A DNA stretch of 64,000 nt from SAR202 cluster bacterium (GTDB taxonomy: Bacteria; Chloroflexota; Dehalococcoidia; Lucifugimonadales; UBA1123). How positions within the stretch are numbered: position 1 is the stretch's first letter; every line of letters starts with the position of its first letter. The position numbers were made by a program, and so were the translations under genes. The stretch is taken from positions 1-64,000 of the forward strand of contig JASMDM010000067.1 of NCBI GenBank assembly GCA_030752795.1, written 5' to 3'. The notes beneath the pieces are model-generated. The model searched no databases. It was not told where the DNA came from and was given only the letters and a program-made list of their open reading frames with translations. Positions 50,056 through 57,953 of the stretch are shown piece after piece.

Positions 50056-50360
50056 CCCACCCGGGCCTACGGCACATCCACGCCCGTTTGGGCTCTACCC
50101 AACGCAGCAGCAAGGTCGATCTCGGGGCCGTGGCCGCGCTCATCTCCGATCGTCAGGAGGGTCTCGCTCGGCATGTAAACGGCGTTGAGGCACGTGCCGC
50201 CGATAGGCAGGGTGCTATTGATTATCAAGGCAGTTTTGCCTTAGTCGCTGCCGCAAACGGGACCGCCCAAGATATTTGGTCGCGATTGCTGTCCGTTGTC
50301 ATCTCACTCGCCTTCGCGCCTTTTTCCCGTCTGCCGAAAAACAATGCGCCGCTCACGAAC
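50056..50360. other. Gap with a possible short minus-strand ORF
   Basis: Between the MerT-like protein and the selenoprotein candidate. A minus-strand frame at 50067-50228 (possible TTG start) reads INSTLPIGGTCLNAVYMPSE and continues TLLTIGDERGHGPEIDLAAALG to a TAG. It looks protein-like but has no ribosome binding site or family that I know. Confidence 0.35.
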
Positions 50361-50855
50361 TCACGGATCCGGTTCGACAAGCTTCCCGATCGCCTGGGTC
50401 AACGACTCCGGATCCAAGCGCATGCCCTGATCGGCCCCATCCGATGCCGATAGCTGATGCATCCAGAATGTCGGTTCCGGCGGCGCGTCCGAATCCCACG
50501 CAACGCCGGGCGGATAGGCCAGGTACACGTCCCACGCGGTTGTCGTCAGTGCCAACGTTCGCGAGAAATGGTCCCCGATGGACCTGTCAGGACTCCACCG
50601 CTGAACAACGCGATCGTCTTTCAGCTCTGCGCGTTGCCGGCCTGCCGCTTCATGGTCGTCTTCGGCGAGCATGGGAAGAAATCCAACAAAACCAGCCAAC
50701 TTCACCGAATCGAATCGCTCGAAGATGTCGCGGACAACCCTGTGTCCGTACTGGCAGGGCGGTCAAGTAGGCGAAACAAGTGCGATCAACCGCACGGAAT
50801 CGATGGCGTCATTGAACCAGCCCTTGATCCCGGCCGTGCTCACGGTGTCTAGCAT
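50361..50855 (-). CDS. Thioredoxin-like selenoprotein candidate (UPPC)
   Basis: ATG 50855 follows GAGGTG. The frame reads IDSVRLIALVSPT, then TGA (50763-50765, codon 31), then PPCQYGHRVVRDIFERFD and on to 50361, 164 residues if TGA is selenocysteine. The stop falls exactly where thioredoxin-fold proteins have the first Cys of CxxC, giving U-P-P-C right after a hydrophobic strand. A stem-loop CGGACA / TGTCCG with loop CAGGGT begins 14 bases after the TGA; 20 bases separate TGA and loop, within the 16-37 known for bacterial SECIS elements. The C-terminal half (WDVYLAYPPGVAWDSD, PTFWMHQL) is unfamiliar. Redox role likely; partner unknown. Confidence 0.75.
50731..50748 (-). promoter_or_regulatory. 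Candidate bacterial SECIS stem-loop (50.7 kb)
   Basis: Six-bp stem CGGACA / TGTCCG, loop CAGGGT; an alternative pairing with a bulged U would close a C-G pair and leave a G-rich loop. It lies inside the coding region just 3' of the UGA, as bacterial SECIS elements do. Confidence 0.6.
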
Positions 50856-51040
50856 CGCTACGTTTCACCTCGGCATAATTCGGCGCCAGTTTCGATCTGT
50901 ATATGTTGAAGCCAGTATACGCTTGCCGCCGCGTTCGTTAGCCACGTCCAGCGGCTCATGATCGCTGGCGCCAACTCCTCTGGACATGAGACAATTCCAC
51001 GAAGCTCCCGATGCGAGCATCTTTTCCGACACAGGTGGAC

Positions 51041-57347: not shown

Positions 57348-57953
57348 TCATCCGCTCGACCAGAGTTCGTCGAACAGCTCTCGCCACCTCTCGTCGGAGC
57401 CCATACCGAACAGGTCCCGGTAGACGACCGTGCCTCGACCGTTGAACGCGATCTTGGTTGATTGCTGTAGCACCCGGAACTTCGACAGCATCCCGTCTCC
57501 CGCCTGCGCGATCGGCCAAGGGTAGCCCTGTTTGTCTCGGTACGCAGCAAGCTTTTCGTAGCTCTCGACGGGGTCCGTGCCGACGGCGTAGAACGCCACT
57601 TTGTCGGCGTAGTCCGGCCAGATGTCTTTCAGGCGCCGTAACTCGGCGCGACAGGTCGCTCACCAAGTGGCGAAGAAGAACAAATACGTTGGTCGCGCCG
57701 CAGTCGCCAAGCTCTCCGAGCTCACGGTGCTGCCGTCCAGCATAGTCATGTCGAATTCAGGGATCGAGTTCCCCACAAAACCGCCAACTTGAGGCGGCGG
57801 CCGGTCGGCCGTTGCGGCGGCGGGCGAGTTCGACGCCGATATCGACGGCAGCAGTTCATCTTCGGCCGTATTGGCGCAGGCCACGAGTGCCAGCACCGCA
57901 ATCGCCACGATCAACAATGCTATTTTTCGGTGCACATTCCCCTCCGGATGCAT
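57348..57953 (-). CDS. TlpA-like thioredoxin lipoprotein, selenoprotein candidate (UATC)
   Basis: From ATG 57953: signal peptide with lipobox LALVAC (Cys26), Ser/Ala linker, then a TlpA/redoxin domain (SIPEFDMTMLDGSTVSSESLA, PTYLFFFATW). At codon 98 is TGA (57660-57662), followed in the same frame by ATCRAELRRLKDIWPDYADK and a complete redoxin to 57348 (KIAFNGRGTVVYRDLFGMG). TGA replaces the first Cys of the WCxxC motif, giving U-A-T-C. A 6-bp stem GCGCCG / CGGCGC with loop AGTTA starts 10 bases after TGA; 16 bases separate TGA and loop. 201 residues if read through. An extracytoplasmic thiol/selenol redox role is likely. Confidence 0.75.
57633..57649 (-). promoter_or_regulatory. Candidate bacterial SECIS stem-loop (57.6 kb)
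   Basis: GCGCCG / CGGCGC, loop AGTTA with G in its second position, 16 bases 3' of the UGA. This satisfies the published shape of bacterial SECIS elements: short upper stem, small loop with an early G, and 16-37 bases of spacing. Confidence 0.65.

Follow-up and report, generated by a model that had tools for sequence, protein, structure and literature searches.

ResA of Bacillus is a membrane-anchored, extracytoplasmic protein in which an active-site Glu matters. Selenoproteins with related domains have been catalogued, some of them from marine metagenomes. A review (2026) includes among selenoproteins a 'Thiol-disulfide isomerase-like protein' (cd02966, UxxC) and a 'Prx-like thiol:disulfide oxidoreductase' (PF00578, UxxC) (PMC13188914), and the Sargasso Sea and GOS papers contain entries for a 'Prx-like protein' (PMC1088965) and a 'Prx-like 1' (PMC2398784). 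Another known kind is the TlpA disulfide reductase selenoprotein with the motif UGC (cd02966). Since Prx-like and TlpA-like UxxC selenoproteins have already been published, this kind of selenoprotein is not new. An earlier note on the DNA described here had expected selenium in a TlpA-like reductase to be unusual, and the entries quoted from the review speak against this (PMC13188914).

The window, by which we mean the whole 64,000-nucleotide stretch that was analysed, corresponds to C67:1-64000 of a 3.5-Mb genome in 116 contigs which, to judge by its fragmentation and its relatives, was assembled from a metagenome. The gene of interest lies at 57348..57953 on the minus strand, running from an ATG at 57953 to a TGA stop at 57348-57350, and encodes 201 residues including Sec98. 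The span given in the earlier note is correct when it is read on this strand; no matching reading was found on the plus strand of 57348-57953. A single internal TGA (57662-57660) falls within FFFATW-U-ATCRAELRRL, and the gene's own terminator is also TGA. This is very probably a bacterial selenoprotein gene in which a hairpin directs the insertion of Sec98, with a product that would be exported and lipidated and whose most likely role is the reduction of extracytoplasmic disulfides or peroxides.

The N-terminal lipoprotein signal and the redoxin domain that had been noticed in the sequence are both present. The signal peptide ends in a lipobox, ALVAC-A (57876..57953, minus strand), with Cys26, the residue to be lipidated, at 57878-57876. 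Cys26 is invariant in the 11 genes of the GTDB family, and a simple lipobox pattern, a crude one of our own, occurs in 115 of 136 homologs; several of the others have an N-terminal membrane segment instead. In four homologs (L118, L120, L126 and L128, from the f36 g71 genomes) such a segment (MNKNGWIGKVLLALGILVPVAGF...) seemingly acts as the anchor and there is no lipobox. The domain spans residues 60-165 (57459..57776, minus strand) and passes the Pfam cut-offs for both AhpC-TSA (PF00578; E 3.1e-12, 47 bits against a cut-off of 26) and Redoxin (PF08534; E 2.5e-8, 34.3 bits against 26.6). The UGA codon for Sec98, the first residue of the UxxC motif, is at 57660..57662 and is identified by codon conservation among relatives, and the codon for Cys101, the resolving cysteine, is at 57651..57653 on the same strand. 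Position 101 is Cys in 131/131 homologs with TGA and in 7/7 without.

The AlphaFold2 model has a pLDDT of around 90 in the domain and a mean of 78 when the disordered linker is included. In Foldseek/VIA-align comparisons the modelled domain has the ResA fold; its best solved match is the ResA-like structure 4nmu (Z 20.8, 137 residues, 1.6 A), followed by 1st9, also ResA-like, at Z 20.2. Like ResA, CcmG and DsbE, the protein combines this fold with a membrane-anchored extracytoplasmic domain and with the active-site Glu position. Glu104, three residues past Cys101, is conserved as Glu in 127 of 138 homologs and, going by sequence spacing, presumably corresponds to E80, the active-site Glu of ResA. 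The protein differs from ResA, CcmG and DsbE in having Sec for the first Cys, in about 20% identity and in the lack of the cis-proline that thioredoxin-fold reductases have facing the active site. In a profile alignment to 2m72, the Pro of that structure aligns with Ser165 (57459..57461, minus strand), and the same position in the 131 TGA homologs holds Ser in 100, Ala in 20, Met in 9, Thr in 1 and Pro in 1; none of the seven non-TGA homologs has Pro there. The likeness to TlpA/ResA put forward earlier thus extends to the fold and stops short of the cis-proline that characterises TlpA, ResA and CcmG. Among the NCBIfam families for named selenoproteins and for ResA, DsbE and TlpA, every curated cut-off was missed by far, for example DsbE with 36.6 against 359 bits and ResA with 31.8 against 170 bits, and NCBIfam thus supplied no name for the protein.

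From the fold, disulfide reduction would be the first guess for the activity; peroxide reduction would come a close second, as the lack of a cis-Pro and the match to AhpC-TSA point that way. That the protein is an extracytoplasmic Prx-like peroxidase rather than a ResA-type disulfide reductase is a real possibility, although not a probable one. AhpC-TSA is its best Pfam match, the cis-Pro position is Ser, Ala or Met in 129 of the 131 TGA homologs, and two ordinary WCPPC proteins encoded in the same genome, which retain Pro at that place (GLPVTFF and SLPTTLF), could fill the ResA/CcmG role. However, ResA is the best fold match at Z about 20, a few above the peroxiredoxins at Z 16-18, and the ResA-type Glu is largely kept. 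The motif is also UxxC, whereas the Prx entry in PMC13188914 has TxxU. The genome further encodes one DsbD_TM homolog and two Cytochrom_C_asm homologs. Given these and the ordinary WCPPC proteins, the Sec protein would be an extra, specialised paralog. No conserved gene neighbours were found when 99 loci and the window were grouped; the commonest neighbour family, threonyl-tRNA-synthetase-like by our own reading, accompanies 15 of the grouped loci and gives no functional hint. With Ser at the cis-Pro position and no conserved neighbours, any assignment of a function is therefore tentative.

Downstream of the internal TGA, the mRNA can form a putative SECIS hairpin at 57633..57649 on the minus strand. 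A GC-only stem of 6 bp with an AGTTA loop, seen in the sequence beforehand, was confirmed as GCGCCG-AGTTA-CGGCGC, with the 5' arm at 57649-57644, the loop at 57643-57639 and the 3' arm at 57638-57633; the stem begins 10 nt and the loop 16 nt after the TGA. The bSECIS model, as set out in a passage of PMC13188914, has a loop of 3-9 nt, a stem of 4-16 bp, a spacing of 16-37 nt, and a G in the first two loop positions together with an MFE <= -7.5. With a loop of 5 nt whose second base is a G and whose third is a U, a stem of 6 bp, a spacing of 16 nt, and -11.4 kcal/mol, the hairpin agrees with all four constraints given there (PMC13188914).

Pairing was followed through the homologs with TGA, whose 131 rows reduce to 126 distinct 42-mer contexts. 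At least five of the six pairs form in 126/126 contexts and all six in 113, provided that a single bulged base at column 28 is permitted in 44 of the 126. This bulge variant was picked after seeing the data; synonymous-codon shuffles scored with the same option gave five pairs in a mean of 25% (maximum 35%, 300 trials) and six pairs in 4%. A rigid count with no bulge is weaker, with 82% of cells paired and all six pairs in 70/126 contexts. The corresponding controls were 69% when the 3' letters were shuffled, with 82% reached by none of 1000 shuffles, and 30-56% when the 3' arm was slid by 1-3 nt. The tree of 138 homologs requires no fewer than 33 switches from one Watson-Crick pair type to another, distributed over the six pairs as at least 5, 6, 9, 4, 8 and 1. 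The loop is constrained as well: its position 2 (G21) is G in all 126 contexts, and the Leu codon in the loop is TTA or TTG in 105/105, while outside the loop TTR accounts for 17% of the Leu codons of these genes. On this comparative evidence, the hairpin is maintained by compensatory changes.

The hairpin also dictates the protein. Two versions of the stem are found in the family, GCGCCG/CGGCGC, which codes R-A-E-L-R-R, and GCTCCG/CGGAGC, which codes R-S-E-L-R-S; the exchange is from G-C to T-A on both sides of the stem, and alters two amino acids together. Ala/Arg and Ser/Ser are swapped jointly because the RNA must remain paired, and the two versions of the helix that follows the active site are two encodings of a paired stem. 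The family offers a natural test, and a clean one, of how an RNA hairpin within a coding region and the active site of the encoded protein limit each other.

The machinery for Sec insertion is complete in the genome. The absence of such machinery had been named as grounds against selenocysteine, and this objection fails, as tRNA-Sec (71.9 bits against a cut-off of 47, anticodon tca), SelA (E 1.8e-131), SelB (E 6.2e-90) and SelD (E 1.7e-109) are all encoded. SelB is at C67:64451-66304 on the plus strand, 451 bp past the end of the window; since this is the window's own contig, binning contamination cannot account for the presence of SelB beside the selenoprotein gene. The selD gene itself carries an in-frame TGA and reads AGUAAK, which fits the UxxK motif given for Sec-containing SelD (PMC13188914). 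The genes for tRNA-Sec, SelA and SelD are grouped on another contig (C44) within about 44 kb. Across the order, SelB is over the cut-off in 209 of 250 genomes. In the order sample, SelB (E <= 1e-58) is present in 88 of the 96 genomes that have the gene in its TGA form; no SelB match was found in the other eight, five of which have SelA, and neither SelA nor SelB was matched in G002, G212 and G215 (75-83% complete).

The TGA codon is widely conserved. All eight genomes of the GTDB family have an ortholog with TGA at the same codon, and so do all 11 family genes including that of the window, to whose protein the other ten are 37-63% identical. At E <= 1e-20, the 250 genomes of the order yielded 149 matches, spread over 103 genomes, and exactly one in-frame TGA is present in 138 of these matches; at least one TGA copy occurs in 96 of the 250 genomes (the 149 matches and 96 genomes were tallied by reading the match listings). 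The 11 matches that have no internal stop comprise six Cys orthologs, one gene with TGG, three distant TlpA-like proteins with WCxxC (49-52 bits) and one fragment in G006, which is part of a frame-broken copy whose TGA sits in the upstream piece. For the codon and hairpin counts, profile hits of at least 80 bits were used with one row per identical 60-nt context, giving 138 rows (131 with TGA and 7 without), so that the codon column reads TGA in 131 distinct homologs, Cys in the 6 orthologs and TGG in 1. Six of the 149 places were left out of these counts (G039, G185:C44, G040, G208, G041:C65 and G046:C19), for each of which the listing gives one TGA; L184 and L185 are likewise outside them.

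Beyond the order, the gene was found in three genomes of a 400-genome sample of the phylum, including its own, and the other two have both the TGA and the hairpin. The named relatives of the protein come from Dehalococcoidia and SAR202-cluster MAGs (Chloroflexota). Among 15 named loci from Dehalococcoidia, SAR202 and Acetothermia, 13 are intact TGA genes, and the remaining two are a frame-broken copy with TGA and a Cys homolog in Acetothermia. Of 25 pattern matches examined for viral relatives, none was confirmed. Tandem pairs of the gene are frequent; G005, G007, G175-G179 and most of G180-G193 provide examples.

A search for TGC in relatives, proposed at the outset, gave different answers at two levels: the family has TGA throughout (11/11), and the Cys codon appears in six orthologs elsewhere in the order (G245, G165, G166, G167, G169 and G158, the last on C25). 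In these Cys orthologs the hairpin is broken, with only 1-4 of the 6 pairs left, so that hairpin decay accompanies Cys replacement. No match to SelA or SelB was found in the Cys-form genomes G245 (97% complete) and G158 (91%). The four Cys-form genomes of f34 (G165, G166, G167 and G169) keep SelB, and three of them SelA, which indicates that Sec can give way to Cys while the pathway is retained. At least three changes between Sec and Cys are needed on the tree. In G249 (C282), one of two tandem copies (L109) has TGG where the close relative G246 has TGA; as this copy keeps all six pairs, it may reflect a recent mutation or an assembly error.

The Cys orthologs and the TGG copy are also what might suggest that UGA is decoded as one of these amino acids, Cys or Trp, through an altered code or a suppressor tRNA, instead of as Sec. 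This is highly improbable. TGA is a normal terminator here, ending 48 of 135 homologs, the selenoprotein gene and two of the five Pfam-supported neighbours, and both the hairpin and the full Sec machinery would be left without a role. The idea that sequencing or assembly turned a TGC into this TGA, or that the gene is a pseudogene, deserves practically no credence even for a metagenome-assembled genome in 116 contigs, since independent genomes (8/8 in the family and 96/250 in the order) carry TGA at the same codon, well beyond what chance would give, and the hairpin is maintained. Ordinary termination at the internal TGA was rejected on the same grounds as these two readings.

The reading of the catalytic residue as selenocysteine, which the earlier note had proposed, is supported by the machinery, the conservation of the codon, the co-varying hairpin and the decayed hairpins of the Cys orthologs. 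Given this anatomy and the complete machinery, Sec is almost certainly inserted at UGA98. In the mechanism that we propose, SelB and Sec-tRNA would recognise the mRNA hairpin, leading to selenocysteine at residue 98 and not to termination. The product would then be exported, lipidated at Cys26 and tethered to the outer face of the membrane through a flexible linker. There, Sec98-x-x-Cys101 of the ResA-like domain would reduce extracytoplasmic disulfides or peroxides: the selenolate would attack, and Cys101 would resolve the selenenylsulfide. A membrane protein of the CcdA/DsbD type, as the presumed electron donor, would re-reduce the Sec98/Cys101 pair.

Among the published selenoproteins, the Prx-like thiol:disulfide oxidoreductase shares the PF00578 domain and the Sec-first UxxC, a comparison made by description (PMC13188914). 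The passages on the Prx-like entries contain no mention of a lipid anchor, of SECIS details or of a distribution in Dehalococcoidia or SAR202 (PMC13188914, PMC1088965, PMC2398784). The thiol-disulfide isomerase-like protein (cd02966) and 'Trx-like 1' (COG0526) likewise have a TlpA-like thioredoxin domain with UxxC and come from marine microbes; as far as their entries go, these are read-level marine metagenome families with no lineage given, again compared by description, and the present family may be among those reads. The UGC-type TlpA selenoprotein, also TlpA-like, is a different gene, with UxC and hence a one-residue spacing. Within titles and the openings of abstracts, a scope that leaves most subscription journals outside, no description of the family in SAR202 or Dehalococcoidia was found, and the terms looked up do not occur in the portions covered of PMC5029168, PMC12013277 and PMC9402790. 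Set against the published metagenomic families by description, three features are possibly new: the lineage, a subfamily that is anchored and has no cis-Pro, and the coupling of RNA to protein. It is conceivable, although we regard it as doubtful, that these genes make up a selenoprotein family of their own, as yet without a name, in Dehalococcoidia/SAR202-type Chloroflexota, defined by an anchored ResA fold that has lost the cis-Pro, by an almost exclusive use of Sec, by repeated tandem duplication and by an active-site helix set by the SECIS. Given Ser or Ala in place of the cis-Pro and a selenolate at the surface, such a family may handle peroxide or metal(loid) outside the cytoplasm rather than reduce disulfides.

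With SelB in 209 of 250 genomes, decoding of Sec is the rule in this Chloroflexota order, whose members would spend selenium on their surface. Standard gene callers would end such genes at the UGA, and the proteins are therefore probably missing or truncated in annotations.

Other genes with an in-frame TGA occur nearby and in related genomes. The companion gene pointed out in the earlier note, at 50.7 kb (50310-50858, minus strand), has its TGA within PTUPPC. The TGA is conserved, but an ortholog is present only in the same-genus genome G003, at 72% identity, that is, in two of the eight family genomes including its own, and 50310-50858 has no Pfam match. The stretch after this TGA can form CGGACA-CAGGGT-TGTCCG in both genomes. 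Three further thioredoxin-fold genes, all in genomes of the family, have an active-site TGA. In the sister genome G003, L056 (C103) reads WASWUACREQLP and, with U-A-C (UxC), is a possible example of the UGC-type TlpA. L052 (G007:C1:1303143) is Prx-like and reads GFFUGICRNQL, and L043 (G005:C83), from the same family of genomes, reads FFATWUPSCRGEARTL.
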